Source: Thamnocephalis sphaerospora (Eukaryota > Zoopagomycota > Zoopagomycetes > Zoopagales > Sigmoideomycetaceae). Taken from it: 64,000 bases of DNA. The notes under the pieces are model-generated. The model saw only the letters and a list, made by a program, of their open reading frames with translations, was not told where the DNA came from and searched no databases. The DNA lies in the NCBI GenBank assembly GCA_003614735.1, contig KZ992433.1, positions 1-64,000 of the forward strand, written 5' to 3'. The translations under genes and the position numbers were made by a program. Numbering within the stretch: position 1 is the stretch's first letter; each line of letters opens with the position of its first letter. Shown here piece after piece: positions 1 to 32,304 of the stretch.

Positions 1-500
1 GGAGGAGCAAGGAAAAGGAAAGTGGTCGGCCCAACCGGTGTGTGCATGCTCGGTCTTTTCCGGCAGCCAAGATGCATGCACGAGACCGCGCGCCTTGTCG
101 CTTCGCACCAACCGGACGCAAGGCATAGTCGTATGTCTGCCCGGTATCTGTCCAACGGCCGCCAGCACTTGGGCGCTTGGTCGTCAGCGAGCAGCCGGCG
201 GGCACGGCGACTGTGCGCGTGCCCAGCTACGATGGTTCTGCACACGTGCATCCCGCCTCCGACTGCACCAGCAGCCGCCACCCATCATGCGTGCCGCCCT
301 TTACAAGGTGGCAGGGAGAGGGTGTGCAGCAGCAGAGAGGCCGTGGAATGTGTCTGCTGTGGAGACAACGCCCGCGGTCACACACGCGCGCGCGGCCTGG
401 TACAAACTCTGGGGCACACCTGGCAAGAGTATGGGACAAGCACACCCCCTAGAGCGGAGCAGCACAGACGTGTATTTGGGTAGGACGGCGCGCGGACCAT
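1..500. other. Left edge, no supported gene
   Basis: This stretch lies downstream of the glutaryl-CoA dehydrogenase stop. Several frames stay open on both strands, but their translations are rich in Cys, Arg and His with no recognisable domain, and no intron-exon pattern like that of the neighbouring genes can be traced. I see nothing in it beyond a probable 3' flank. Confidence 0.5.
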
Positions 501-2574
501 CTACGCCTCCACGCCAAAGGCCGGAATACCCGTGATGGCTCGGCCCAAGATCAGAGCATGGACATCGTGAGTGCCTGTGATGCAAAGGAGTGAGCCATCC
601 GGCAGGCGCAGTCAGTGCAGCACGGTACATACCTTCGTACGTGTTGACAGCCTCGAGGTTCATCACATGGCGGATAATGTGGTACTCATCGCTGATGCCA
701 TTTCCTATCGGTCCGCAACGTGAAAGCGTGAGCAGATAAGCACATTTGCGCTCGCATGATCTGTCGGTGCAAGCCACTCACCGCCCAGAATGTCGCGCAT
801 TTGGCGTGCAATCTCAAGTGCCTTGCCACACGAGTTGCGTTTGATCAGCGATACCATCTCCGGCGCCAGCATCTTGTTCTCCTTGAGGCGGCCGACCTGC
901 AGACACGCTTGCAAGCCAATGGCAATCTGAGAGAGCATAGCGCACGCATAAGCCGCCGCACCGTGCAGCACAGCATGCGCTTCGATGCAGTACACACCTC
1001 GGCATTGGCGTCGGTCAGCTTCTTCTGGATAAGCTGAAAACGTGCCAGCGGCACACCAAACTGCTTCCTACACGGATGCCGGCGCACAGGTTGGTTCGAC
1101 TGCACGGCGAGCACGCGTTGCACGCACTTGCCTGTTCAGTGCGTACTCGCGGGCCTGTGCCAGGCAAAACTCTGCAGCACCCAGAGCACCCCAGGCAATG
1201 CCATAGCGTGCATTGTTCAGGCAGCCAAAGGGACCCTGTAGCGAGCATGGCCAAATAGCACCGTGTCAGTCCAATCACAGAGCATAGATGCGCCCACATA
1301 TGAGTCTCACCTTGAGGCCAGACACATTCGGCAGCAGATTCTCCGCAGGCACTTCAACATCTTCCATGTGGATCATACCAGTCACCGAGGCACGCAGCGA
1401 AAACTTGCCCTTGATAATGGGTGCGGTCAGACCCTTCATGCCCTTTTCTAGAATAAAGCCACGGATCTTGCCGTCATCGGCAGTCTTGGCCCACACGATA
1501 AACACATCGGCAATCGGCGAGTTGGTAATCCAAGTCTTGGAGCCGTTTAGAATGTAGGCATTACCCTCGCGCCGAGCAACGGTTTCCATGTTGCCCGGAT
1601 CGCTACCATGGTTTGGCTCGGTTAGGCCAAAGCAACCAACCAGCTCGCCCGAGGCTGATCAAGACATGTCACCGCGCAAAGAAGCAGTCAGCATCAGACG
1701 CGCATAAGCTACTCTGTCGACAGACTTGCACGCAAAGGTGTGACCTACCGAGACGAGGTAGGTACTTGGTCTTTTGCGCTTCAGTGCCATACGCATATAT
1801 AGGATGCATCACCAGCGACGACTGCACGCTCATGGCAGAGCGATATCCGCTGTCCACCCTGCAAGTGCACGCATACACACACGCAGCAGCCATAGCAGTG
1901 TCAATATACGATAAACAGCATTGATCACCTTTGATGAGGTTCTCAACGTACCGCTCCACCTCACGCGCGATGAGACCATAAGACACGGAGGAGACACCCG
2001 CGCAGCCATAACCTTCAATGGTGGCACCTAGCATGCCCATCTCGCCAAACTCCTCAAAGATCTTGCGGTCAAACGCTACGATGCGACCAAGGCAGCATAA
2101 GCAGATGCACATGCACCGTCTGGCTCAAGAGACGAGCTACTTGGACACTCACTCTCGTAACGGTTTGCTTCCAGCACGCGCGGCATTAACTTGGATTGAC
2201 AGTAGGCATGCGCCGATTCACTGGGATTGTAGCCTACGCGTCAGTGTACTTTATATCATCTACCAACACACTGACGGCACCTACCGTGTAATAAGCTCCT
2301 CCTCGGTCAGCTGGGAGGAAATGTTCAGCGGGTCCGTCCAGTCATACTTGACAAACTCTGCATAGCGCATACAAGGTTAGTGAGCGTTTGCTGGTACACG
2401 TTGCAAAACCATCACGTACCAGACGTCTTGGACGCAAAGCAACGCGCAGTCTGGCGTGCTGCAGGCGGGCAAGCGATCACGATTAGCCACTATTACAATG
2501 CATACACGCTCATGCGCCGCACCCATGCCAGCACGCAAAAGTGTTCCCGCGCGTAGCGTTGTCGAGCGGAGCAT
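501..2574 (-). CDS. GCDH: Glutaryl-CoA dehydrogenase, mitochondrial
   Basis: FAD-dependent acyl-CoA dehydrogenase family enzyme that converts glutaryl-CoA to crotonyl-CoA in lysine and tryptophan breakdown in the mitochondrial matrix. The reading starts at 2574 with [16 protein letters not shown], an Arg/Ser/Thr-rich presequence, and joins across short introns to [17 protein letters not shown]. Diagnostic blocks follow in order: [77 protein letters not shown] and [16 protein letters not shown]. The last of these includes the Glu region expected for the catalytic base. The gene ends IPAFGVEA. About ten exons are implied. It shares a 468 bp upstream gap with the divergent importin gene. Family assignment is firm; substrate is by similarity to GCDH rather than to other acyl-CoA dehydrogenases. 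Confidence 0.9.
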
Positions 2575-3042
2575 TTTGACAGAAACAACGGGGTAGATGT
2601 GGATGACACGCGAAATAGCAACGCAAGGAAGCGAAACGAGAAAGAGGGCGGCACTAGAGAGCGAGTAGGCGAGGGCTGGACTGGCGCCTAGTCTATCCTC
2701 GACCCGCGATGGAGCAGCGTCACCACCAATAATTCCCACGCTTCCCTATCCGACGGTCAGGTCCGCACCGGCGCAATACCATGGCGGTGCACCCTGGCCG
2801 ACCATGCCATGGGCGTTCAGCGAACCACCGGCCGCTTCGGCAGCCATAGCGCAGCGCATGCTTTGCCGGACGGCCATCTACGTAGCACTACTGACGAAGC
2901 GTACCGCGTCCATGGAAGCCACGCTGAAAGAAGCATATCACGTGATTTGTTTTTTTCTTTGCTGCTAGCACCCGACATGCATTCGTCGCGGCGCTTCTCC
3001 ACCCACCGCTGTTACCGTTGCCGACACGCCCTGTTACCAGCC
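2575..3042. promoter_or_regulatory. Divergent promoter gap, GCDH/importin
   Basis: A 468 bp gap between two head-to-head genes. In-frame extensions of both genes into it exist, but they do not resemble the families, so the inner ATGs at 2574 (-) and 3043 (+) were preferred. No clear TATA box or repeat was seen. Confidence 0.45.
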
Positions 3043-6000
3043 ATGTCCGATGCTCAGCAGCTACTCCAGGTGTTCAGCGCCACCATTCATCATGATCCGC
3101 AGGTGCGCGGACAGGCTGAGGCGCAGCTAGAGAAGGTAAGCGCGGGCACTGGAAAAACACGCCGACAACCGCCATGCTCACCCGCCGCACCACCAGCTCA
3201 AGACGGTGCCGGGCAGCCTGACCCTGGTGCTGCAGCTGATAGCTTCGCCTGAGGTGGAAATGTCGGCGCGTCAAGCGGGTAAGGCGCCAACGCAAAGCAG
3301 ATTGGGTACCGAAGCGGCGCGCGACTAACAACGACGATTTGTTTGCGATATGGCGCTAGCTTCTATCTTCTTCAAGAACCGCGTTCAGCGCGGCTGGAAG
3401 CCGTCCGATACTGCGCGGCACCCGGAGATTGATGCGCAGGACAAGGAGGAGATCAAGAAGCAGATGCTGAGCGCGCTGGTGGCCACGCCCAGCAACATCG
3501 GGTAAGTGCTGATGTCAAACGGCCAGCGCAAAGACTATGCTTGCTGACCACAGTGCTATGAACATCGGGTTCAGTGTGCAGCTGGTGGCGTGTCTCAGCG
3601 TGATTCTGGAAAACGAATACCCTGCCAACTGGCCACAGTTGCTGCCAATGCTGCAGGAGATGCTGCAGAGCAACGAGCAAAAGGTGGTTCACAGTGGCCT
3701 TTTGGCGCTGCGTGAGGCCGTCAAGGTGTACCAGTACGTGCAAAGTGACCGGCGTGTCTACGTTGATGTTGCGGGCGCATTTACATCGGTGCTCATCGTC
3801 GCGTACTGCCGCCGATAATCCAGGTGGCGTGCCAAGGAGCGTCGTGAACCGCTAAACAACATTATCCGCGTCGCTTTCCCACTACTGGTGAACATTGCAC
3901 AGCAGCTGCTGGCGCACGACGACCTGGAGGCGGGCGAGATGGTCAAGATTGCCTGCAAGACGTACTTTTCGTCCAGCCTGCACGAGCTGTCTGACGAGCA
4001 GCAGGAAGTCGGATCGCTGACGACGTGGCTGACGCTCTTCCTGGCTGTGGTCGAAAAGGACATTCCCGTAAGCACGCTGCCGGAGGATTTGGACGAGCGT
4101 GAGAAGCACTCGTGGTGGAAGGCGAAGAAGTGGGCGATGCACTGCGTGAACCGCCTGTTTGCGCGGTACGGCAACCCGGCGCTTCTGGCTCGCAGCAACA
4201 CTCGCTACACGCAGTTTGCGGACGCCTTCATCGGCGAAATTATGCCAAATGTGCTGCGCGCCTACCTGGGTCAGGTCGACAAGGCCATCAGCACAGGTGC
4301 TTGGATGAGCCAGCGCTGCATTGCGCTCACCTGCCATCTGCTGAGCGACAGGCAAGTGAGCTGGGCAGTATAGCGCGCTAGCATATGGCCTGCTGACTTT
4401 AGTACTGGGCCATCGTGCAGTATCAAACACAAGTCGACCTGGGCCATTGTCAAGCCGCACACAGATGCGCTTGTGGCGCGCTTCATCTTCCCGCAGCTGT
4501 GCATCAGCGCAGCGGATGAAGAGCTTTGGCAGGATGATCCTGTCGATTATATCAACAAGAAGGCCGGTACGTGTGTCGCAACGGATGTAATATGCGTGAT
4601 CAGATGTGGCGCGGTGCTCATCACAAATTACCACCTTGCTACAGATCCTCTGGAGGACCTGCGCTCGCCAACCACGGCCGCGACAAACCTGCTGTTGGAC
4701 TTGGTGCGCGACCGCAAGAAGCTCACCTTCCTGCCGATCCTCAACTTTGTCAATACCACGCTGATGACGTACGTAGGCTACTGCCCGCACTACCCGCGCG
4801 TGCTCTGCTCTTTTTGCTCGGCGTCACTAACTACCGTACTCGTTCACTGGTTACCCGCATAGCTATCAGCAGGCGGCCCCGGAGGCACGCAACTACCGTG
4901 AAAAGGACGGCGCCCTGTGCATGATGGGCTGTCTAGCCGACCATATGCTGGGCAAGGTCCGTTTGCTTTGATACGTGGCATATCCACATATCTACTCACC
5001 TGCTGCGTGCTGCCGTCGACAGAAATCGCCGGTGCGCGCCCAGATGGAGGAGTTTGTGATGGTGCACATCTACCCAGAGTTCCGCAGCCAGGTCCCATAT
5101 CTGCGCTCTCGGGAAAGTACTACTATCAATTTTTGCGTCTGTTTCTCCGTGCTTACACTGCATCGTATAATAGGCATGCGACACGATGAGCAAATTTGAC
5201 GGACTTGTATTCTCTAATGAGCAGGTAAACATGGACAGCTGGCATCGACTAGTGTGCAAAACTAATAAGCCGCCATCTGCAGCACCCAGCCTTGATTCTT
5301 GAGGCAACGCTTGCTTGCATGAAGGATCCGGAACTGCCTGTGCGCGCCGCCGCGGCAATCTCCATGCAGCCTCTGTTACGCTTTGAGCAAGGCAAGTATT
5401 CACCTGTCCCCAGTGATAGAGTGCACATGCACTGATGCCCAACACAACAGTGCGCCCTATGATGGTGCCGCATCTGCCGACGATTATGCAGGAGCTCCTC
5501 AGCCTCACCAACCAGATCGACGTTGATGCGCTTTCTGGTGTGACGGATGAGTTTGTCGAGACGTTTGGCGAAGAGCTGGCGCCGTTTGCGGTGCAGATTT
5601 GCCAGCAACTGGTACGTCCCACCGCTCGCTACTTGGCATCATACTGCCTTGCCTTACACACCACGCGCTGCACTGTACATTGATTTATACGAATTCTGTT
5701 AGCGCGACACGTATCTTCGTATTATGAACGAGGTCATTGCCGCCGAGAGCAAGGCAGAGGCCGATATGCTGGATGTCAAGGACCTGGAGGAGAGCAGCGT
5801 AAGTACTTTTCCGTCACGCACCACATCATGCCCTGCTGACACACAAGCGTAACGGTGCAGGATAAGACCATGAACGCCATGGGTGTCCTAAAGAACATCA
5901 GCACGTTGGTTGTCAGCCTAGAAGCCAAGCCAGAGGTGAGGCCACGCAGCGCTCAGCACACGTTTGTGCCGCACACGGCGCTCATCGAATGTAATACGCT

Positions 6001-7922
6001 GCTGCCAATATCTACAGCTTCAGACTCAGCTGGAAGAGACCATTATCCCGGTGGTTAGCTTCACGCTTCAGCATGGCGCTGTTGGTAAGTGTACATGCTA
6101 GGCTATGTTATACGCTCTACGTTAACAGAGCTTACTGATTATGGGGCGTGCTTACAGAGCTGTATGACGAAGTGCTTGAGATTGTCGACTGCTGCATCTA
6201 CTCTCGAAAGGCCATTTCTCCAGCCATGTGGTCGGTCTTTTCGCTGATCGCGGCTGCCTACAAGGCCCATGCGGTCGAATTCACCGAAGGTATGCAGCAC
6301 GCTTACGCGCGCCAGCCACTAGGTGGTGCACAATGCTGACATTGCTTGCTCGTCCCACAGAGTTTTTCCCTACAGCCTCCAACTTTGTCTGCTACGGCAA
6401 GGATGCTGTTGTAGCTAGCAGCGAGATCCAGCAGGCACTGGTGGACATGATCAGCCTTGTAGGTGCAGACACCCCTATGGCGTACTTGTCTGCGCACTTT
6501 GAGCTTACATGCGCCGACGCTTTATTCCAGGCAATGACCTCGGACAAAGTTGGCGAGGTCGATCGTACCTGTGCCTGCACACTGATGGAGTGCCTGATGC
6601 TGAATTGCCCGGGCGCGTTGGATCAGGTATGGCGCAGAATTGCGGCACGCTGCAGCGCCATGCTCACCACAAATCGGTGTACAGTACCTTGGCCACTTTA
6701 TCGATGCTGCTCTCCACTATCTGCTGAGCGAGGATGGCATCAAGACTGGCCCATTCCGCATCCGCTGCCTGACCACGGTAGGTGGCAGGCGCGCATTATG
6801 CACTTGGCGGCATTTATTAACCCTTAAGAAAAGGTCGTCACTGCCCTGCTCTACAATTCGACCGCCACACTCCAGCTGCTGGAGGCGCGTCAGCGTACGC
6901 AGGCGTTCTTCCAGATCTGGTTTGAAAACCTGAAAAAGTTCAAGGGGTGGGTTTTACTCTCAACGGCCTACACCATCACAGCCCAGTACTGATAATCACA
7001 CGCAACATGCTAGAATGCACGACACCAAGCTGTGCGTTATGGCACTGTGTGCACTGCTGGAAAAGTCTGACGGCCAGCTTCCGGCTTCTGTGAGTGCAAG
7101 TATCTCTCATCTGTTGAACGGTCTCATTTCTCTGCTGCCAACGTACGAGAAGGCTGCTGCCGGTGAGTGTTTTGCATGCCAACGCTACATTCCATGCGCT
7201 AATATGCATCTACGATGTTGCAGACCAAACCCATCTGGAAGCTCTGCGCGCCTCGCTTGACAGCGACGAGGATGAAGACGAGGACGAGGACGCAGAAGGC
7301 GTGGAGGTCGACGACTTTGCCGACATCATCGACAAGTTTGACGATGGCTTTGAAGGTCCGTTGCAGAATGACACAAGCCGTGACGATCTACTAATTTACG
7401 CTAACGTGTGCACTTTCAAACATGTTTGCACATGTCTAGACGATGAGGACGTTGAGAACGAGGACAAAGAGTACCTCGAGTTCCTTGCTAGCAGGGTAGG
7501 GATTATGGCGAAAAGATATCTGCATGTTGTCAACACCAACTTACGCCATTCATGTAGGCATCCGAAACCGGTCCACTCGGAGAGGACGATGGTGCCAGCG
7601 ACCAAGGCGAAGCCGATGGCGGCGACGGCGACGACGACTTTTACGATGATGATGATGAGGGAGCCAACGAGGGCATGTTCGAGTCACCGCTGGATGACGC
7701 CGATCTCCATACGCAGGTGGAGCACACGCTGAAAAGTAAGTGACAAAAGAAGCGATGCAAACTAGGCGACAGCAGGCTGACGATGGCACACTTGCAGCCC
7801 TCGAGGCCCATCGCCCCGCAGTGTACACTGCTGCCATCGCTGCCATTACAGACGAGCAGCGCGAGGCCCTTACACACGCGTACGAGATGGCGGCCATGAC
7901 GCGTGCCGAGGCTAGCGGCTAA
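3043..7922 (+). CDS. NMD5: Importin-beta family nuclear transport receptor (importin-7/8, Nmd5/Sxm1 type)
   Basis: A karyopherin that carries cargo through nuclear pores under Ran control. The start MSDAQQLLQVFSATI at 3043 is followed by an importin-beta N-terminal domain (QVRGQAEAQLEK) and the block ASIFFKNRVQRGW typical of the importin-7 group. Long HEAT-like helical repeats follow (for example WWKAKKWAMHCVNRLFARYG, LEATLACMKDPELPVRAAAA, FRIRCLTTVVTALLYNS). Near the C terminus is a very acidic stretch ([13 protein letters not shown] and later FYDDDDEGANEG), as in Nmd5/Sxm1/IPO7. The gene ends TRAEASG at 7922. More than twenty short introns can be traced, one of the densest arrays in the window. 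It looks complete. Which paralogue it is (Nmd5 or Sxm1) is not settled. Confidence 0.88.
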
Positions 7923-8148
7923 ATCCCTCCCGTTCACGTCTGGTCCATGCTCAATATCTATGCAATGTCTGCACACTTGGCACATGCACGTGCCAATGTC
8001 GGTCACAAATACACCAGCGCCAAACGCAGATCTTTTGCATGACAACTCTTGTATCGTAGTGTTTCCGTTGTGCGCAGATTAAGGACCAAACGTCCAACTG
8101 GACGTTTATTGTGGCATGAAGCGAGCGTAAGCAGCGGGCTCGAGTGCT

Positions 8149-9239
<1,091 letters not shown>

Positions 9240-11392: not shown

Positions 11393-12781
11393 TTAGAGGT
11401 TGGAGGTGCCAGAGATAAAGAACCACTTGTCAACTGCAAACCAAAGCGGCACAAGTAATGGTCAGCACGAGTGGCACACCATCGCTGCTGTGCGCCATCC
11501 ACTTACTCGCTGAGTCAATCGGCTGCGCTGGCTGCGCCGACTCGGGCGGGATGGCCTTGGAAACCGGGTCATCGCAGGTGATCTTGCCTGGGCTGCCCTC
11601 GATGCTAAGGTTGGTGCTACAGATGGCGTTGCCAACAACCACGGTAAGCACAAGTGCCAGGAAAGAGTACGGTGCAGTTGCAAATGGTTTACGCACATGT
11701 CAAGAGAATACGTATCCGTCTGAGCAGGGACCCGGCCGTCGATCAGGCGTTTCCAGGCTTCGTGCGTCTCAAGCACCACATCGGTAGCGTATTGCTGCAA
11801 GCGCTTGAGCGTTAATCGCGCGCGTATAGACACGCGCGCAGCCAAAAGTAGCGTACCCTGTTCTTGGCCTCACCGCTGAAGGCAAACTGGTTTTCCTTCT
11901 TGCCATCCGGGATCTTGTAGATGCGGAACCACTCATTGGTGGCGCGGGTCAGGCCCGGCAGGTGGCGCTCCACGTCCTCAATGTCTGCCCACCACATGCA
12001 CAGTTAGATGAAACTGCAGCGGTGGCTGACAGACGACGAAAAGCGACACCGCGGTCGTCTACTCACCGTTCAGCTTGCTGGCCAGCGGATCGTTCACATC
12101 AATGGCAATCACCTTCCAGTCGGTCTCACCTGGAAAGAACCCGCGGTGAATAAATAACCCCAATTTTTGACTCGCATGTCGCGCGTACCCTCATCCAGCA
12201 GAGCCATAACTCCGAGAATCTTGACCTGCTTCACCTGGCCAGTGTAGCCGACCTGCTCGCCAATCTCGCAGACATCGATGGGGTCGTTGTCACCGCGGGC
12301 CCTGGTCTCCTCGTTGATGTGGTTCGGGTCCTCCCAGGTCTGCGGCAGCGCGCCATAGTTCCAAATGTAACCGTGGTGCGGGAAGCAGTTGCGCACGTAG
12401 CGCAGCTTGTCCTTCTTCGTGTCCTGCTTGATCGGGTTGAGCGGCTCGCCGGTGGCAATCTGCAGAGCTGCAAGCGTCAGCGCAAGACAAAGATATGTGC
12501 ATCGTGCCGTACGCACCTCCATCTTTGCGTTAGTCCAGCGCGGCACCTCGACCACCATGTTGAAAACAGTCTTGCGGTCGTTGGCGAACAGCGGGATATC
12601 GTGGAACGGCGAGATCACCTTGCCATCCTTTTCTGCAAGGAAAAGCCGACGCAGACGCACATGCCACGTTGGCCACGCATTCAGAGTACTGCTGCCAGCC
12701 GGTCCGTGCATACTCACCAATGTAGACTCGGTGATCCAAGGTGTTTGGTGCACCAACCACACGTGTCTTGTACTCGGACAT
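11393..12781 (-). CDS. IPP1: Soluble inorganic pyrophosphatase
   Basis: Family I PPase that hydrolyses pyrophosphate to phosphate, mainly in the cytosol. The start [20 protein letters not shown] at 12781 is followed by [52 protein letters not shown] and the metal-binding signature [11 protein letters not shown]. Then come [20 protein letters not shown] and [14 protein letters not shown]. The C-terminal tail ([24 protein letters not shown]) splices to a last exon [12 protein letters not shown], matching the extension of yeast Ipp1. About six short introns. The start is 287 bp from the divergent VPS52 start. Complete. Confidence 0.94.
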
Positions 12782-13068
12782 GATGGCAGAAAAGGCTGTG
12801 AACGAGCGAGCAACAAAGCGGCTAGGCAACGGGTTGGTTGGCTGGTAAGGGCAGCGGCTGGCGAATACGGGTAGAGTAGGAGAAGAAAGAGAGGCGCGGG
12901 TCAGAGCGCGTCGGCACAGTTGGGGTATGGGACTGATACGCATCATCACCGGTAGACAGCGGAAAGAGACACAGTAGCTGTGTCCAACCAAACGCATGCC
13001 TGATTGGTGACATTCTCCCACCGGCCAGTTGGGCACAGCATCGTCACCGCATACCATACACCGACACG

Positions 13069-15851
13069 ATGAGCACAAGCGCCGGCAATCAGCACCAGCG
13101 CGCAGCAGGCGTAAGCATCCGGCGTCGCTGGCCACCTGTCGCCGCAGTCAGGCTAACCTGGCGTCTGTGAACGGACTAGACACAGGAAAAAGACGTGCGC
13201 AAACACGCGTTAGAGGTGGCGGCAGAGCTAGGGGCTCTCGAGGAGACCCATGCGGCCAAATGTAAGCGTCTGGCAGCCAAGACGGCGGCACAATTGCTAA
13301 CCGAGGGAGATGTGCACGGGAACTAGACCTTACACAGGCGCCGCTGGCGCTTGCTGTCCACGAAGAGGTGGAGGTAAGCTGACCGTGTCGGACAGTGTCG
13401 CTAGGACGGCTAATGTGCTCCGCGCGCACAGCACTGCCTACAGCTAGTAGACACAATGGAGGAGACGCTCCAGGGCTTTCAGACGAATTTGGCGGAAGTA
13501 AGCCGCGAAATTATGCATGTTCAGCAGAGCTCCAGCACTATGACGCTACATATCCAAAATCGCAAAGTACGGGCTTGGCTGGCGGACGCTGCGGACTTGC
13601 CCATGGCTGACGGTCTGTTTTGCAGGCGGCACAACAAGCACTCGACAAAAGCTTGCTCAAGCTAGTTGTACCGCCCACACTAATCTCGTAAGCGCTCGAC
13701 TTTAATGCGGACGACGAGATTAGGTACTTGACATTGCGCGCACAGAGTAATCATGCAAAATGCCATCGACGATTTGTACATGGATAATCTGGCGGTACTG
13801 CATGCAAAGCTACAGCATGCGCGCCGGCTAGAAGCGGATGGCACCAAACTCTCCAGCGACCTGACGGGCTGTCTCGAGCGTCTTCGTCTTGCGGTACGGG
13901 CGGTAAAACACGAGTCCGCTGTAAGCAGCCACGTTCTGACATTAGCCAACATCATCGTAGGCGACAGCGCGAGTTCGCGTGTTTTTGTTGGAGAAAATTC
14001 GCTCGCTTCGGGTCCCAAACACAAATGTGCAGATCATTCAGCAGGCAGTTCTGTTGCGGCATCAGCCTGCATTCCGTTTTCTGAGGAAATGGCATACAGA
14101 GGCGGCGTCAGAGGTGTTGCAGGAATACGTGAACGCCATGACCATTTACTATTTGGACAACTTTGAGCAGTACAGCCGTGGTCTATGGAAGTTGATGGTA
14201 TACACTGGCAATGATACCATGCTAGGTGAATGCGCGCCGACTAACGGGGCCCACCCGGTGACATTATGCGTAGACGGCTGCAATCGAGAAAGGCGAACTG
14301 ACACTTGCCGGAGAGATGGCCAAGTCGGGCGGTATGTATCGTAGTCCGTCGCTGCATGCAATATCTATTCAGCTTACAGGTGCCTGGTCTGTTGGCAGTG
14401 TTTGCCAATTATCGTCCCTCTAGCCAGTCGAGTGCTTTTCGCATTACGGATCGTGCTGCTTCGCTGGCATCCACAGAAAACGAAGTGATCCTGACGCACG
14501 TTGCAGAGGACATGGCGCAGACATTTCCGCTGGAAAGGATCATTCGCAGCGTGAACGCCGCCTTGCGTGACAACGCCTGTGCCGAGTATGTGTTCATTCT
14601 TCAGTTTTTCATTCACCGCTCCGAGGTGGAGGGCGCCGAGATTTTTGCGCGTGTCTTTCAGCCGACCATCAAGGCTATGCTGGTATGACGACCTAGAATT
14701 ATCAGCATGAGTGCGGACACCATGACAGAGGCTAACACGCTTCTTTCATTGCTATACAGGCGGATCTTCGCCATGCAGTGGACAACACCTACGATCTTTT
14801 GGGGCTTCTCATGTCGGTGCGTGTGCTGGAGCAGGCCGGCATAGAGATGGAGCGCCGTCAGATGCCTATTTTAGAGTCCTATTTGCAAGAAGCAATTATG
14901 ATCATCTGGCCAAAGTACCAGCTGCTTGTGGATCGCATTGTGCGCAACACCAGGGAGCTACCCTGGAAAAAGTTGTCGGCAGGGCTGGATGTCAAACCAC
15001 ATGGCGTATGTTTGACCAGAGTTGGCTGTACTTCAAGACATACACATGTGCTAACGCCACGCTCCATCCAACAGATGACCCGGCGATTTGCCGAGCTGTC
15101 AGCGGCCATCCTAGAGTTTTCGTTGGGCCCCAATGACGGTGTTGTTCAGAGTAGCATCCTCAAGCTGCGCTCAGAGTTTGGCATGCTCTTCACCAAGTTG
15201 GCGGCCTCGTTTCGTGTGCCAATCGACCAACATGCATTTGCTATCAACAACTTGGCTACCATCACCACTACACTTGTGAGTGCAGATGAACAATGCGCCG
15301 CTTGCATCCTACACCTTCTGAACTGTGCTTGCGCGTACAGGAGCGGACGGTAAAGGAGGACGAGCCGCTGTTGCTTCATTATCAGGAGCAGCTTCATGAG
15401 CAAGCCAACAGTCTTATTGAGAAGCTGCTCGATCAGCATTTTTCCCGGTTGACACTACTTGCCCGCGCCGTCGAACAAAACGCATCGTCGTCACAACATC
15501 AGCGGCCGTCGTTCACGAAGCGTAAGTAGCGCATCTACAAAGTACAGACGACGACTGAACTAACGATACGCCATCGTTGTTCCAGAGCAAATCGCCGAGA
15601 TCTCTCGCGAGTTCAACGAAAGCTGGGCAGCCGAGGTAGAGGCTCTCCAAGTTGCCGTGCAGCAGCGCATCGTTGATCAGCGTACACAAGTGGAGCTGAT
15701 GCAAGCGGCGCTAGCGCGGTTAATGACCTACTACACCCACTTTTATCTGATCCTAGAGCAGGAGCTGGATATCAACGACCTTGGCTGGACGCCGTTGGGT
15801 GTGCAGACGCTCATGGTTGAGGTAAAGAAGTTTGTTGCGCACGAGCGCTAG
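13069..15851 (+). CDS. VPS52: GARP complex subunit Vps52
   Basis: Component of the Golgi-associated retrograde protein tether, which captures endosome-derived vesicles at the trans-Golgi. The best start is MSTSAGNQHQ at 13069, leading through short introns to a coiled-coil segment (LVDTMEETLQGFQTNLAEVS). The Vps52/Sac2 body follows: HTEAASEVLQEYVNAMTIYY, LERIIRSVNAALRDNACAEY, FHRSEVEGAEIFARVFQPT, HAVDNTYDLLGLLMSVRV and MPILESYLQEAIMIIWPKY. It ends LGVQTLMVEVKKFVAHER. Around ten introns, including small N-terminal exons whose exact junctions are less certain. The stop is followed directly by the AT-rich island. Confidence 0.85.
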
Positions 15852-16179: not shown

Positions 16180-16542
16180 TCAACTAGGCGCAGCAATGCG
16201 AGGCGCGCGTGCTGCCACGCCCAGCCACGGCTCCAGGTACCTTGTCCATACTATGCACAGGCCGTTAGCAGCTGGCGGAGCAGCACGCGGTGTCGCTGCG
16301 GCACACCAACACTTACTCCAGAACGAGAACCGTCGGCCAAACCAGCGCCCAACAAATGGAATCACGATGCCGGTAACGAGGAACTTGAGCTCGCGCACCG
16401 TTTCTTCCCATTCCTCCTCCCAATCTGATTCAGATTCCGAGTCGCTGGTATCAAACAGACCTGGGTCGCCCGGCTCAGAGCTGTCGGTGTCGTAGGTGCT
16501 CGTCGACGTAACCTCAGTTTCAGCATCGCTAGGACCGGTCAT
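16180..16542 (-). CDS. Small single-pass membrane protein, Mim2-like
   Basis: About 98 residues from MTGPSDAETEVTSTSTYD at 16542. A Ser/Asp/Glu-rich N-terminal half (DTSDSESESDWEEEWEET) is followed by one hydrophobic helix (FLVTGIVIPFVGRWFGRRFS) with a GRWFGRR turn. A single intron at the FW codons then joins to IWTRYLEPWLG. An acidic head, one helix and a basic G-W-x-G-R-x motif followed by an aromatic stretch is how I recall fungal Mim2, a subunit of the mitochondrial outer-membrane insertase. The assignment is from memory of the pattern, not from alignment. It starts 84 bp from the divergent gene at 16627. Confidence 0.5.
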   Translation of the reverse strand: MTGPSDAETEVTSTSTYDTDSSEPGDPGLFDTSDSESESDWEEEWEETVRELKFLVTGIVIPFVGRWFGRRFSFWSKCWCAAATPRAAPPAANGLCIVWTRYLEPWLGVAARAPRIAAPS

Positions 16543-16626
16543 ACTTGTAATGTTGACGTGTTCGCGAGTGTGAAGAGGAAGAGAAACGACTGCACGCATG
16601 CTACTCTTTGATCCTGCCTCACCACT

Positions 16627-17428
16627 ATGATCACCCTGTCTGCCGTGCGGTTCACACCGCTTGCCGTGCGGTTTGCGCCGCGCCAGCCGTTTGCAAGTAG
16701 TCTGCTTACCCGCAGCGTGGCCAGGACTGCGCTGAGGTCGCGGGCTTTTAGCGTTATGTGCCCTGCACGCTCGGCCGTGCATGTTCACGAAGACACCAAT
16801 CGTCCTGGTTTGTTTTATCATACACCGTCGGCGGAGAAGGGCACCGGCACGATATTCGTCAGCTTACTGCGAGAGGTGCCGTCCAAGGCTCTCACCGTGC
16901 CATGCAACAGCGCTCTGGTGTGTGGCTGGCTAAAGGACCAGGAGGGCGCGTCTCCGGAGACGCTGCTTTCACCTAGCAACTTTACAGAATGCCAGGCGTT
17001 CCGTGACACGCTGAACGCTGTTGTTCGGGAGCAGGCGCACGTTGTAGACCCTGTGCTGGAAACAGCAGCCCGGCATCAGGGTGAGGGCTGGCTACATGTT
17101 GTCGGTAGGTGACGTCGGGTATGACGTTGTCATTGGCGATTTTGGCTAACTCTGCCGTGACCAGACGAGCGCAACCCGGCGCCTTGGGGAAGGTATGTCG
17201 CCAGGAGTGCACGCGCGTGATGGACATTGCTCTAATGCTCAGCGTAGGATTCCGGATGCTGAGGATATCATCGGCAGTGTCGAGGTGCGTGACGGCCTGA
17301 TTTTGCCCGGCAGCTTCCAGCCGATGCCTGTGCATCGGCTAGTCTCGTCGAACGGAGTGTTCCTTCTGAGCAAGCCGCTGCAGGCGACGCTATTGGCACG
17401 GCTGCATGAGCTTGCGCAAACGGCGTAA
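16627..17428 (+). CDS. Conserved fungal protein of unknown function, probably mitochondrial
   Basis: I do not recognise a named family. The N terminus (MITLSAVRFTPLAVRFAPRQ, then SLLTRSVARTALRSRAFSV) is rich in Arg, Ser and Ala with no acids, a strong mitochondrial presequence pattern. The middle reads TIFVSLLREVPSKALTVPCN and ECQAFRDTLNAVVREQAHVV. The end carries a conserved-looking block RIPDAEDIIGSVEVRDGLIL followed by PGSFQPMPVHRLVSSNGVFL and LARLHELAQTA. Two introns are evident near 17104-17245. No catalytic motif or membrane segment was found. Confidence 0.75.
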
Positions 17429-21298: not shown

Positions 21299-22188
21299 GT
21301 TGGCAGAGAGTGAATCGACGACAGAACGGATGGGTGGTATCGAGGAAGAGAGGCGACGCGCGATCGGCCTAACCCGGCAACGACAATATGTGCAGGAACG
21401 CGCAAACATAGTTACACTGCGAAAACTGCCATCGCCTCAACGCATCACCCTATGGTAGCAAACAAAGGACGGTCTTGCATGGTGCGTTTGTTTAATGTAC
21501 GAACGAGGGTGCATCAGACACCACGCAGCCACAGCATTGTCAGCACAGCAAAGGAATGCTCAAGCTGTTGTGCAAATGCTCTACGGCTCAAGGCGCTTCG
21601 GATCGCGAGGGAACATGGACGACTTGCGGATGTTGCCCAGCGCCAGATACAGCATAAGCACACGCTCAAGACCAATGCCACCGCCAGCATGAGGCGGGGC
21701 GCCGTACTTGAACGCATTGATGTACGGCTCGATGGTGGCCGGGTCGACACCGTGTTCGCTGGCGCGCTGCTTGAGGAACTCGGCGTCGTGCACACGCTGC
21801 GCACCAGACATGATTTCCTCGCCGCGCATGAAAAAGTCGTACGAGTTCGAGTAGCCCTATAGATAAATGCCGTGTGTGTGGCGTCAGCAATACAACAAAG
21901 AGGGCTGGGTGCCAAACACTGGGCATCGTTCAACTTACCGGGCGGTGTGGGTCCGGCATTGTGTAGAACGGACGCACCGCGAGCGGGAACTTGTCCAGCA
22001 TGAAAAAGTCGGTGTTGTACTTTTCCTTCACGAGCCTGCCAAGACGACGCTCGGCCTCCGTGGATAGGTCGTCCGTGTCGCCAATCTCGTAGCCAGACTC
22101 GCGCAGCATCGCAATAGCCTCAGGGTACTCGAGACGCAGCGTCTTGGGCAAAAACTTGAACGGCTCAAACGGATGCTGGCGGTTCACC

Positions 22189-22200
22189 ACCTGGACACGC
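22189..22200 (+). repeat. Left arm of 12-bp inverted repeat at inversion edge
   Basis: ACCTGGACACGC. It is the perfect reverse complement of 22518-22529. It sits at the switch from minus-strand coding (V-Q-V-V-N-R-Q) to plus-strand coding (L-D-T-R). Confidence 0.95.
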
Positions 22201-22517
22201 GTCTGAACAATCGTGTCGTTGATCTTCGTGTAGGTGCTGCGCTAACGATGACGTCGCAGACAAGTGAATCATATTGCTCACATCAGTGGGCGTACAGACG
22301 ATCACTGGCCAGGCCATCTTCCGCATTCAATCGGGCATCTGCGAGCTGTTCCGCGAGTATTTGCTCAAGAAGCGCTTTATCGAGATTCACACGCCCAAAA
22401 TTCTGGGCGCGGCTAGCGAGGGCGGTGCCAGCGTATTTAAGATCAGCTACTTTAAGAGTATGTTGTTGCGCACGCGGTGCCATCATAGCAATCGAGCTGC
22501 ACCACTAATGTGCTGAT

Positions 22518-22529
22518 GCGTGTCCAGGT
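22518..22529 (-). repeat. Right arm of 12-bp inverted repeat at inversion edge
   Basis: GCGTGTCCAGGT on the plus strand, the perfect reverse complement of 22189-22200. On the minus strand it completes V-N-L-D-T of the N-terminal half, after which homology stops. Confidence 0.95.
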
Positions 22530-23882
22530 TGACGCGGCTAAACTGAGCGTCCTCCTGTGGTGCATGTACCAAAAATAAGCCGCTGGCGTAGCCAATATCT
22601 ACTCCACAGCGCTGTATCATACCCGCTCGAATTCCGTATCCGGACGCGATGCATCTTCGATCGAGAACGGCAGCTGGGGAGCAGCCTCACTCTCAACAAA
22701 GAGCTACCAAATGCAGCTGATGTTAGGAAGCGGTCTAGCGTAATAAGACGTAGTAGACAGCCTACCGAAAGGATATGCAGTTCGGCATCCTGGACCGTGC
22801 AGCTGCGGATTGGCTCCGGTGCCTTGACAACCTCAGCCTCCACCAACACAATCGACTCGTTCGGGATGCTAGTGTACAGCGCCATGCGATAAGCAATCGC
22901 ATCGACGTGTGGACACAGCTAGGCCCGGCCATGCGGGGAAGCACGTACCTGACGGCATACTTGAGCATCTTCTTGCTGACATTCTCCTTGTCTACCGTCA
23001 GCAGAGCCTGGATGGTGGCATACTGATGGCGAAGCATGAAGAAGCACATTTTTGCGCCTAAATCACCGTTTTTGCCGCATTAACGCCTGGCGTCTGTATC
23101 ACCGCTACGCTTTGTACCGGCATTTGCAGCTGTATACTTGCCTGTCGGGCGAGAGTGCTGCACACGGGCGCGGATCAGGACGGTCTTTCCCGCAAAATCA
23201 CCTGAAATGTCTCCAACGAGCGTGCGCTCGCGGCCTAATCGATGATGAGTTATTGTCGATCTGGCAGACAGCAAGAGTCATGCCGATCGGCGTTGTGGCT
23301 TACCCGTGCGCTCATGCGACTGGTTCATTGGCTTCTTGCCGTACTTGCCGGCAGAGTAGTCGACCTCGTTTGCCTCCTTTGCGGCGCGCTCGGCAGCCTC
23401 TTTGGCAGCACGCTCCTGCTTCTTTGCCTCTTTCTCCTTCTTTGCCTGCAGCTTCTTGAAGGCCTTCTTGGAGATCTTGTTTCCTTCGTCACTAGAGACG
23501 CAATCGCCAGGCCGCTACTCGTTAGTTGTCTTTTCCGTTTGATTTCCACAAATGCACCGCGCCACGGGGTCGCGCTCGCTCTGCCCGTGGCATGCAGGCT
23601 GGCCGAGCAATTTTGCTGCTTACTCGTAAAACACCTCCTCGGCGCTCTCGCCTACAGCGATGGCATCCACGACCACCGGTGCAGCCTCCTGAGGGTTTGA
23701 CATGGTGATGCTAATGCGTGTGAGGTGCTCGACTGGCTGGCTGAGAAAGAGAAAGAGCGTAGGGTGCGTATGACGACGGACGCTGACACGTGAGCCATTA
23801 CAATAAAACTGTATCTGCCCCACTCTACGCTTTAGCACGCCACGACACTTTCAGTTCGCCCATTGCTGTACAAACAATTGCC

Positions 23883-26304: not shown

Positions 26305-29271
26305 ATGCCTTTTGCCGACGCAGCTGGCCGGAAGCGGCCCGGAGACCACGCGAGCGACAGCGATCCGGACATTGGTCCGCAGCCTGTAGGCCAGGAGGCA
26401 GATGAAGGTGGGTTCGACAGTGCCCTGTTGGCACCTTGCTTGCCCCACTAACACGGCGTCAGTGTAGATTCGGACGTTGGGCCTATGCCGGCCGGTGCCA
26501 CACAGCCAGAGAAGAAGAAGAAAAGGCGTGGTTCGTGTTTGGGCATTGCTAGTATCGCTCCGCATTTGCGACGTTGACCGCTAACCTGTGTTGTCGTATA
26601 GCTTTGGCACATGAGGAATTGTACACTGAGCAACTGCCGTGCGCAGAGATGTACGAGCGCAGCTACATGCACCGCGATGTTCTTTGCACAGTGGATATTA
26701 CCAGGTGTGTTTCGTACACCCGCCGGCTACGTTGCAATAGGCTGGCTGATGATAGAATGCGCACACGCTGGTTGGTAGCTCCAACTTTATCATCACGACT
26801 TCGGTGGACGGGCATTTGAAGTTCTGGAACAAGTCAGATGTTGGCATTGAGTTTGTCAAGCACTATCGGGCTCATCTCGGTGAGTCTTGAGCTAGCACGC
26901 GCGCAAGACCAGCGATGCAATCCATACCCGTCAGATTACTGAATGGGATATGTCATAGGTACGATCATCGGTACAAGTGCGTCTGCAGACGGGTCGCTCT
27001 TCGCCACGGCTGCTGCCGACAAAGCCCTAAAGGTGTTTGACGTGGTCAATTTTGGTGAGTATTCACTGGTCTGCACGCTGTTCCGACTACGGAACTGAGC
27101 AATTGCTGCGCAACGACAGATATGATCAATATCATTCAACTTGACTATGTCCCCAGCTGTATTTGCTGGATTCACCGTCGTGGACAAGCCCAGTCGCTAC
27201 TTGCTTGGTACGACAGTGATGGATAGCTGGGATGCACGACGGGCACTTGTACTGATGCGTCACTGTAGCGCCGATCGCGACTCTAACGTCATCTATTTGT
27301 ATGATGGGCGCGGTGACGGCAAGCCATTGCGTCAGATCGATAATCTGCACTCGGAGCCAGTCTGTGCCATGAAGGTCCGACAGCTGCACTTGTCTGCGTG
27401 TGCAGTGATGCCCGGTTAATTGTACCTTCTAACATACCTGCAATCTGTAGTATAATCACATCTACCACTGCGTGATTACAGCCGACACCGGAGGAATGCT
27501 CGAGTACTGGAATCCTGACGAGCCCAGCGAATTGCCAAACACGCTTGCTTTTCAGTTCAAGTCGGCTACAGATTTGTACGAGTTCAAAAAAGTGAGTCAT
27601 GCGTCAATGGCTGAGCCCTGCCGGTACTGATCGGTGTCATCAGAGCAAATCCCACCCGACGTCTATCACATTATCACCAGACTGCGAGCAGTTTGTCACC
27701 ATGGGCCTTAGTGACCGGCAGGTTCGTGTATTCCGCTTTGCTACCGGAAAGATGACACGCAAATACGACGAGTCTCTGGACACCATCAGCGAGATGCAGC
27801 AGGTGCGTGCAGGTTACCGTAAACCCGCGGCGAAATTAGGTTGATTCACATTGCAGCGCACTAGGCTGGAACGGCGTTCTACCGTCTGGATGACATGGAG
27901 TTTGGTCGACGTCTGGCTGTAGATCGTGAGCTGGAAAAGAGCCCACAGGTGTATCTTGTGAACGCTGGTAAGTGTAGTACGCACGCTGTCGCTACCTATT
28001 CTTGTGGTGTTTATGCTAATCTTGATGCATTAGCCTTTGACGAAAGCGGCCACTTTCTCTTGTACCCTACGCTGCTGGGTATCAAAGGTAGGTGTACATG
28101 CATTATGTGGTTTAGCCCAACGAATATAGCTTGCGCCGTCGGTGTGGTTGTATGCAATTAACGTAACGTTTGCTGCAATGGTGCACTAGTGGTAAACATG
28201 CACAGCAACCGAGTCGTTCAAATACTCGGTAAAGGAGAGCCGCATCGGTTCATGAATGTGGCACTTTATCAAGGTGCACTGAAGAAAAAGGCGGCGGCAA
28301 CACTGGCAAGTAGCGTAGCATCTGCCGTTTTACCGTGGCTTAATGGACGCTGATCACTAATGTGCGCACGCATTCGCTGCACAGGCTATGGCCGCGTCGG
28401 ACAATCCGCTGGTAAAGGAGCGGGACAAGAAGGATCCGACGCTCTTCTGTACCGCATACAAGCGGAACCGCTTTTTCATGTTTTCGCGGCGAGATCCCGA
28501 CTCGTAAGTCTGAGCTGGCATAATCCAGCGGCCCTTTGTTTGATAGACTTGCTGACGCGCATCACACACTATCACTGGCCGACTCTAGCGATGAGTCGCA
28601 CCAGGGTGATCGTGATGTATTCAACGAGAAGCCGACGCGTGAAGAGCAGAGTGTGGCCGTGGCACAGTCGGCCAAGCAGTTTGGCACTCGTGCTGTCCTG
28701 CGCACCACACTTGGAGACATTCACCTGCAGCTCTTTCCCGACTATGCGCCGCGTGCTGTGGAGAATTTCGTCACACACTCCAAGAGCAGCTATTACGACA
28801 ATGTGATCTTCCATCGCGTCATCAAGGGATTCATGCTGCAGACTGGCGATCCGCTTGGTAAGTGCCGCCTCGGTTACTGTTCGCAACACGTACTGACAGA
28901 GTACGCAACAGGTGATGGCACGGGCGGTGATTCGATCTGGAACAAGGAATTTGAAGACGAGTTCCACCCGGATCTCAAGCATGACCGTCCTTATGTTGTC
29001 AGTATGGCCAATGCAGGCCCTAACACTAACGGATCGCAGTTTTTTATCACGACCGTTGCCACCGTGAGTGCCTACTTGTTCTGCATTCTGTTTGCGGCTC
29101 TCGCTAATTTGATTGAAACACACAAAGCCTTGGCTCGACAACAAGCATACTATCTTTGGCCGTGCCATCGCCGGCTTTGATGTTGTACATCAGATCGAGA
29201 ATCTTCGCACGGATAAACTGGACAAGCCATACGAAGATGTGAAAATCATCAACATTGAGATCAAGCAGTAG
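26305..29271 (+). CDS. PPWD1: WD40-repeat peptidyl-prolyl isomerase PPWD1
   Basis: A nuclear cyclophilin found with spliceosomes in other eukaryotes. The start [18 protein letters not shown] is at 26305. A lysine cluster KKKKRR precedes the WD40 part: [80 protein letters not shown] and [21 protein letters not shown] linker leads to the cyclophilin domain: [40 protein letters not shown] with the catalytic Arg, and [16 protein letters not shown]. The end is [14 protein letters not shown]. About ten introns. Domain order and length fit PPWD1 fully. Confidence 0.93.
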
Positions 29272-29490: not shown

Positions 29491-32304
29491 CTACTTGACG
29501 ACGCGGCGAGCTGTTCCAATGTGGCACGAATTCACCTTGGTGGCGAAACGTAGCGAGCACAGCGTTTCCTGGAAGCTCTCGGGCAGCGGTGAGATATTGA
29601 CAAACATCAGCGTCTTGCTGTTGCCGCCAAGAGAGTTTTGCAGCAGGTAAGTCAGCTTTGAGTTGCGATACGGAATGTGTGCGTCCTTGTTGGCGAGAGC
29701 CGCAATGACATCACCCAGGCTGCTGAGGCTTTTGTTGATTGCCTGCGTTTCCTTCAGACGCTCGCCTGTGGCACCAGAGGCAGAGAGACGCTCCGATCCT
29801 GCCAGATCAATCAAGTTCAGCAATCCCTCGCTGGTTTCCAGCGTGATCCGGTTGCGCCCCTTAAGACGAAGGGTGAAGACACTGCGTGGACAATGTAAGC
29901 AGACTGTCAGGAGTCCAGCAGTGCTGGTTTAACTTGCCTGTGACTCCGCGATGACCGTTCATTGCACATTGTCGCTGCAACGGCTCGGTTCTGGCTCGCC
30001 TTCTTCAAGAGCGCCGTCACCTTGCCGGGAGTATCGAGAATCACTGTTGTGTGGCGCCAAAATAGTATGCGCATGTCAGCGCCTGAATGCATCACCGTGT
30101 CCCGCCACCGCGCTTGCCTGTCTTCACATCAGTTACGATGGTCTTGTTGCCCGGCTGGTGCTTGATGTCATGCTTCTTGTTGAGATCACCGTTGCCAAGC
30201 AGATCGTGAACAGACTCGTTGTAGATTTCCACAAACTGTCCTTCCATCTCGTACTCCCATCCCTTTTCCTTGAGCTGCGCCGCCGTGGCAAAGATCTGGT
30301 GAACTGCACGAGGAATCATGCCCATGTTGGACTCGTCCAAATTATCGGGTCCCTCCATCGTGTAGGTCTAAGCATTGTGATCGTTGTGAGTTGTTGGATG
30401 CACGCAAGCCGCATTATGCATTCACGCACCTTGCCGCTTCCTGTCTGACCGTAGCTGTAAGTGCGGCAACATCGCATTAGCCCACCAATGTGCACTTCAC
30501 ACTCTGACAGCATATCCTGCATTCTTTACGTCTACTTACGCGAAAATGCACACTGGATAGCCATCCAGCGCAGACTGCACTAGCTGCGAAATCTCCTCAA
30601 AGATCACGGATTGTGTAGTGCTGCCTGGGAAAACCATGTCAAAGTTGAACGGGTACGTCTTTGTCACGGATTTGCCGTTGGCCGACTCCTGCAGTGATAC
30701 ACAAAATAATCTAACGCGTAAGAGCGACAAATAAAGCGATATGAGCTGGCGCTCTACACGCACCTGGACTTGCATCAGCTCAATCTCCTTGCCACTGTTG
30801 CTGTCTGGAAGCTTCATGTGGGTTATGACGTCCTCCGTCTTTTTGCCATCCTGCAGCTCATTTCCTACCAGAAAGCAGCGCGCCGCAAAACTATCAGAAA
30901 AGCTACTGCGATGCAGCTATGATTGACGTACCGAGCAGCGGTCGTACGCGGCAAAAAACGCGAATGTTGCCCTTGAGCTCCTGCAAAACACGACAGAATA
31001 CAACAACAAGTTCAGCTCAGTGGCAACAACGTGTAAGCCATTTACGCCCGCACCTGAATGGTGTTGTGCAACTTGCGTCGCACCATCTCCTCCTCACGGA
31101 TCTTGCTCTCCAGTTCCGCAATCAGTGCCGCATTCTCCTCCAACTTTGCCTTGAGCTGCACGATGAGCGCGTCCCGCTCGCTTAGAGTGCCCTCGGTACT
31201 CTGGGACGAACCACATAGTACGGATCAGTTTCATCGCAGCAGTCGCTCCAGGTCAGAATGTGGTGTGCAGCCACCCACCTTGAGCTTGTCCTTTAGCGCG
31301 CCGTGGTCGCTTTCCAACGCAAGGAATGCGGCTGATTGTGCCGAAACGGTACTCTTCAATTGTGTGTTTTCCGCTCTAGCCTGGGCCAGCTGCTCCTCCG
31401 AGCTGCCCAGTTCCACCTTGAGCTTATCGTGTGCGCTTTGGAGAGAATCGTGGCTTGTCTTAAGAGTGCCGACCTCAAGTTGATGCTTGGACTCTAGCGC
31501 GCTGATCTCGCTTTCGTGACGACGCGCGGCTATCTCCAGCTCGTTCTTACTTTCCTGCAGCTGCTGCAAAATATCGCTGTTCTCCTTGTCCTTATCTTCG
31601 ATGCGATGCTCTAGACTCTCGCGGAACTTTTCCAGCTCCGTGACTGAAAATGCGGCAGACTGGTAAATCGCATGTCCTACTGCAGGCAACACGAACGCTG
31701 AGCTTACTCTTGGCCTCGCTTGATTGCAGCTTTTCAGTCATGCTTTCGACGGCGCCTGTCGACGTCTTGATTTGCTCCTTGAGGCGGGCTGTCATCTCCT
31801 CCATATCATTGACACGGCTCTACACATGCCAGCAGCGCCAATATGATTTCGCAGTATGAGGAAATGCGTGGCATTTTGTAGTCTAACATTTCAGCTTACC
31901 TTTGTGTCCACAGCCACACGCGTCTTCTTGGCCGGTGGCCCACTAGGGGCAACATTGCCTCGAGCACTGGTGGCTAGAGTCCGCGTCGTTGTTTTGCTGG
32001 GGGGTGCTGGCTTTCCCGCGGCGGTGCGCTTAGTCGTCTTTGATGCAGCCGGTGCCGTGGTGCGCGGAGCAGCCGTCCGCCGTCCTGTGGTGCTTGCGCT
32101 AGCAGCGCCTGTGCGACGCGCCACCGTGCTCTTTGCCACCGTTGGTCTGGCGATTTTGGTGGCGGCACTGGGCGCCTCCGCCTTGCGCTTTGTGCCGGCG
32201 ACTGCGCCCGTAGACGGCTGCGGAATTGGTATGGCGCTCGGCTTTGGCGGCTCCTTTGTTGGAGGCTTCACCAACACACTGAGTCTGGGAAGGCGAGAGC
32301 TCAT
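29491..32304 (-). CDS. Kinesin-14, C-terminal motor (Kar3/Klp2/KIFC1 type)
   Basis: Minus-end-directed microtubule motor used in spindle assembly. The start [20 protein letters not shown] at 32304 opens a Lys/Ala/Thr-rich basic tail, the probable second microtubule-binding site. A long coiled coil follows ([40 protein letters not shown]). The kinesin-14 neck [19 protein letters not shown] leads into the motor: P-loop GQTGSGK split by an intron before TYTMEGP, switch I NERSSRSH, switch [12 protein letters not shown], then [16 protein letters not shown] and [16 protein letters not shown]. The gene ends [15 protein letters not shown]. About eleven introns, one with a GC donor. Complete. Confidence 0.93.
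30044..30117 (-). other. GC-AG intron in kinesin motor domain
   Basis: The exon coding VTDVKT ends ACAG and is followed by GCAAGC rather than GT. The intron ends CAACAG and rejoins in frame at TGATTCTCGATACTCC, giving the expected [13 protein letters not shown]. The alternative of reading through gives a stop shortly after. Confidence 0.8.

Follow-up and report, generated by a model that had tools for sequence, protein, structure and literature searches.

Organisation of the AspRS locus

We analysed a window of 64,000 nucleotides from Thamnocephalis sphaerospora, which is part of the 76,238-base contig C10 in an assembly of 594 contigs and 14.45 Mb. Six-frame translation and splice signals identified in this window a gene for the cytosolic aspartyl-tRNA synthetase (AspRS), encoded on the minus strand from position 23703 to position 21581 in many exons separated by short introns. 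Cytosolic AspRS is an essential enzyme. Within the gene, a piece of 341 bp encodes part of the protein on the plus strand (Table 1).

Other genes of the window were identified with protein profiles. The Pfam scan covered 10 of the 22 open frames of at least 200 aa, and gave matches above the cut-off for an inorganic pyrophosphatase (12112-12900, minus strand), the C-terminal domain of Vps52 (14736-15350, plus strand), Mim2 (16183-16863, minus strand) and a cyclophilin (28524-29177, plus strand); one further match was below the cut-off and five frames had no match. A kinesin motor domain (29527-30691) was covered by four matched pieces, all on the minus strand.

Table 1. Features of the cytosolic AspRS gene and of its flipped piece (positions in the window).
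Feature	Position	Strand	Remarks
N-terminal AspRS exons (MSNPQEA... to FSRVN)	22530..23703	-	Normal orientation; translation, splice signals, P0002 pieces
Right arm of the 12-nt junction overlap, within V-N-L-D-T	22518..22529	-	Minus-strand reading ACCTGGACACGC
Intron start (GTATGT...) after SYFK, flipped piece	22458..22517	+	Intron truncated by the right junction; read from the sequence
Flipped AspRS exon (TITGQAIF...SVFKISYFK)	22298..22457	+	Translation, PDB match, P0002 match
Flipped intron between VVDLR and TITGQ (GTAGGT...ACAG)	22230..22297	+	GT...AG ends; read from the sequence
Flipped exon piece of 13 residues	22189..22229	+	Translation, comparison with relatives
Left arm of the 12-nt junction overlap (ACCTGGACACGC)	22189..22200	+	Repeat search
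C-terminal AspRS exons (VVNRQHP... to PKRLEP stop)	21581..22188	-	Normal orientation; the preceding 85 residues of relatives are absent

A plus-strand piece in a minus-strand gene

In the six-frame translation, AspRS is read from the minus strand on both sides of the piece and from the plus strand in between (QTITGQ...SVFKISYFK). The AspRS of Syncephalis plumigaleata (P0002) matched the contig in eight pieces, seven on the minus strand and one on the plus strand (22286-22465). When compared with PDB, the plus-strand piece matched a eukaryotic cytosolic AspRS (1eov, E 1.7e-22), and it is identical to P0002 at 59 of 66 residues. Hence, the plus-strand match is not due to chance. These results bear out the first-pass annotation, which had described minus-strand AspRS coding in the two flanks and plus-strand AspRS coding in the 341 bp between them, with correct coordinates and frames. 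The exons and the visible splice sites of the flipped piece are intact, and the AspRS exons are open in the reading frame. The larger of the flipped exons covers the motif 1 region.

It had also been claimed that the residues L-D-T occur at both ends of the piece and that the strand switches mid-exon. The residues are correct, but they reflect an inverted repeat, ACCTGGACACGC, whose two copies, one at each junction, match perfectly over 12 nt. Its right copy is in frame after VN, and its left copy runs on into RLNNR. No further base matches outward; inward, there is a mismatch after 12 nt, and the identity is 81% over 27 nt. The arms are separated by 317 nt if one considers the perfect repeat of 12 nt and by 287 nt if one considers the imperfect repeat of 27 nt. 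Counting the junction pair, the window contains five inverted repeats that match perfectly over 12 nt and span 292-432 nt, so this repeat is remarkable solely for its exact position at the junctions. One of its copies would be original, and the other either a pre-existing homology or the product of a second copying of these 12 bases. For the overlap that each junction actually used, 12 nt is therefore an upper bound, and it may have been shorter.

Missing residues of the catalytic domain

The first-pass annotation had described the flipped piece as encoding the adjoining part of the protein. The flip in the sequence is confirmed, but a deletion was overlooked, and the piece leaves a gap when it is turned. 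A stretch of 85 residues (P0002 285-369), located between SYFK and VVNRQHP, is absent from the flipped piece and from the flanks. Turning the 341-bp piece back thus gives no whole gene. The gap is 85 residues relative to each of the five relatives compared, and in an alignment of eight AspRS the seven rows other than the annotated protein of T. sphaerospora (P0001) are continuous across the region. In P0002 the deleted stretch includes FRAEDSNTHRHMTEF, which we take to be the class II motif 2. We searched for this stretch in the 14.45-Mb assembly with E-values up to 10, and only contig C333 was matched, at 36% identity. From the translations and alignments, the arrangement reads as an inversion together with a deletion that removed no fewer than 255 coding bases. 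A balanced natural inversion, in which no sequence is lost, does not agree with the 85 missing residues.

The best protein match of the gene is THASP1DRAFT_27315 of T. sphaerospora (P0001, 484 aa), among the best 120 of 6731 matches. This protein bridges the flipped piece in antisense: at least 51 residues in its middle are a minus-strand translation of exons that lie on the plus strand. It is present in ncbi, uniref, nr and eukprot, so that an artefact, should this be one, has already entered the protein databases.

Decay and copy number

All three parts of the gene are well conserved. The identity to P0002 is 82% (165/201) in the N-terminal part, 89% in the flipped exons and 86% in the C-terminal part, and the range over the Syncephalis proteins is 88-89% for the flipped piece and 82-86% for the flanks. 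A dead copy (pseudogene) was considered and is not supported, as each of the three pieces is 82-89% identical to the two proteins of Syncephalis and the exons are open. The absence of decay fits an event in the tube, or a very recent one in the fungus.

A DNA search with the gene against its own assembly matched only the gene itself. The search of the assembly with P0002 gave matches on C10 and C333 only, and the identity of the latter to P0002 is 25%. The profile PF00152 matched pieces on these two contigs and on C169 and C162. We take C333 to encode a putative asparaginyl-type enzyme and C169 a putative AspRS of mitochondrial type, whose six PF00152 pieces are all on one strand. These searches of the 14.45-Mb assembly, possibly an incomplete one, gave no second cytosolic AspRS, such as the second intact DPS1 that the first-pass annotation had envisaged. 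In the protein collection, P0001 was the only protein of T. sphaerospora among the best 120 of 6731 matches.

Other rearrangements in the assembly

We looked for opposite-strand pieces in the loci of conserved domains with at least two matched pieces (single-piece loci were excluded), and found none in 42 loci, as counted by eye: 0/8 for PF00118, 0/6 for PF00133, 0/4 for PF00063, 0/8 for PF00225, 0/8 for PF00270 (36 of 53 candidates scored) and 0/8 for PF00176. Small flips would escape such a count, which therefore bounds the rate of flips weakly, and no second flip can be demonstrated in the assembly. For PF00069 (151 matches, 130 of 220 candidates scored), none of the matches listed had a partner on the other strand less than 3 kb away. 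The comparison of the window with itself (blastn, word 11, E 1e-3) gave only the full diagonal, i.e., no inverted duplication elsewhere in the window.

Some contigs are redundant. C441 (13,896 bp) is whole inside C147 (1-13896) as reverse complement, with 100% identity over 8,897 bp and, in an overlapping comparison, three mismatches in 5,897 bp. C535 (11,100 bp) recurs in full at the beginning of C278, with three mismatches, and at that of C243, where it is reversed and identical; it looks as though a single edge of the assembly graph had been written out three times. Both cases are redundancy that reflects imperfect resolution, and not inversions within genes.

Origin of the flipped piece

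T. sphaerospora is among eight species sequenced from sorted single cells and cell pools (PMC6784888, 2018). That study describes amplification by multiple displacement amplification (MDA), with the REPLI-g kit or with phi29 and hexamers, and assembly with SPAdes, with k of 21, 33 or 55 for single libraries, which were pooled into co-assemblies (PMC6784888). The latter comprised 478 to 8,398 scaffolds and 10.6 to 46.5 Mb (PMC6784888). The present assembly is inside both ranges, and our window is probably part of the deposited co-assembly of that study.

The chimeras produced by MDA have been described in detail. Lasken and Stockwell reported that 406 of 475 were inverted, of which 337 had partners less than 10 kb apart (PMC1855051, 2007). 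They also described intervening deletions, and in 76.8% of the chimeras the parts overlapped by 2-21 nt (PMC1855051). The distance between partners peaks at 250-300 nt, and a chimera may consist of two parts or of more (PMC4595205, 2015). More than 95% of the overlaps are of 3-13 nt, those of 12-13 nt being the most used relative to their genomic availability (PMC5372508, 2017).

Given these data, the flipped piece is very probably an in-vitro chimera made by phi29 during MDA and carried into the short-read assembly. The deletion of 85 residues and the 12-nt overlap both point to MDA; the first-pass annotation missed the former and made no use of the latter. It had offered three options: an assembly or amplification error, a dead second copy or allele, and a real inversion combined with an intact copy at another place. 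Of these, the first has the best support; the other two need an intact copy, and the searches found none in the assembly, which may be incomplete. We favour an amplification error. The growing strand would have copied the AspRS gene up to VNLDTR and then been displaced. A neighbouring strand of opposite polarity would have served as its new template: priming in the intron that follows SYFK, the displaced strand would have been extended back to VNLDTR and would have rejoined the gene at VVNRQHP, 85 codons further on. The outcome would be a flipped piece of 341 bp, a 12-nt inverted overlap, and the loss of the intervening stretch. The junctions would thus have arisen in the tube in this order of switches, either both on one molecule or combined by the assembler, and the true AspRS gene of T. 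sphaerospora is presumably continuous. Some observations speak against an MDA chimera. It requires two junctions, which in the original gene map no more than 12 nt apart, and no other flip was seen in the 42 loci described above. When several libraries are pooled in a co-assembly, a chimera should be outnumbered, except at low coverage. Finally, the overlap is richer in G+C (8/12) than the mean of the human MDA chimeras (39%, PMC5372508), though the window itself is at 55.5% G+C.

A real inversion with deletion could also have occurred in the fungus by microhomology-mediated template switching, with the function provided by an allele or copy absent from the assembly. Template switching in vivo and in vitro leaves the same overlap, inversion and deletion, and sequence cannot separate them; scaffolds shorter than 2 kb were removed from the published assemblies and the co-assemblies were 73-99% complete (PMC6784888). 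The lack of a second flip among the 42 other loci also speaks for this origin. Yet, the enzyme is essential, the searches of the 14.45 Mb gave neither a second copy nor the missing stretch, there is no decay in the flipped exons, and the source DNA is an MDA product. We therefore regard this origin as unlikely.

The redundancy of the C441/C147 and C535/C278/C243 contigs is of a graph type, and could suggest that the assembler misjoined the sequence at a short repeat in the absence of any chimeric molecule. This is quite improbable: the overlap of 12 nt is shorter than the smallest k-mer used for single libraries (21, PMC6784888, although that of the co-assembly may differ), and a de Bruijn join is thus unexpected without chimeric reads.

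A real arrangement would mean that an essential enzyme is broken. The fungus would then carry the inversion-deletion, its only mapped cytosolic AspRS gene would be short of 85 catalytic-domain residues, and aspartyl-tRNA would have to come from another enzyme or from a copy that has escaped recognition, a combination that we consider very improbable. A functional arrangement that uses the flipped exons, by trans-splicing or a programmed flip, is barely credible in spite of their intact exons and visible splice sites, since the 85 residues are missing whichever the orientation, the gene is plain in all seven relatives of the alignment, and the sole repeat at the ends is of a size for which the window holds five examples of comparable spacing.

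The favoured MDA chimera makes this case mainly a cautionary one, i.e., a known signature of MDA in what is apparently the deposited genome of T. sphaerospora. Where single-cell assemblies of fungi seem to show gene losses or rearrangements, the signature of MDA chimeras should be looked for.

Comparison with known systems

The AspRS of S. plumigaleata (P0002) and S. fuscata (P0003) have their coding pieces in the same order as the gene of T. sphaerospora, with 82-89% identity per piece. Both are continuous and include the 85 residues, whereas the gene of T. sphaerospora lacks them. MMBIR/FoSTeS, a microhomology-mediated inversion with deletion that occurs in vivo, has an identical junction anatomy. 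Such an event would require another source of AspRS in the cell, and none was found in the assembly. Published MDA chimeras are mainly two-part reads with one junction, unlike the two junctions found here in one deposited contig. The flipped piece has in common with the inverted chimeras of MDA the phi29-amplified source DNA, the inverted neighbour, the partner within a few hundred bases, the intervening deletion, and a short complementary overlap that falls within 2-21 nt.
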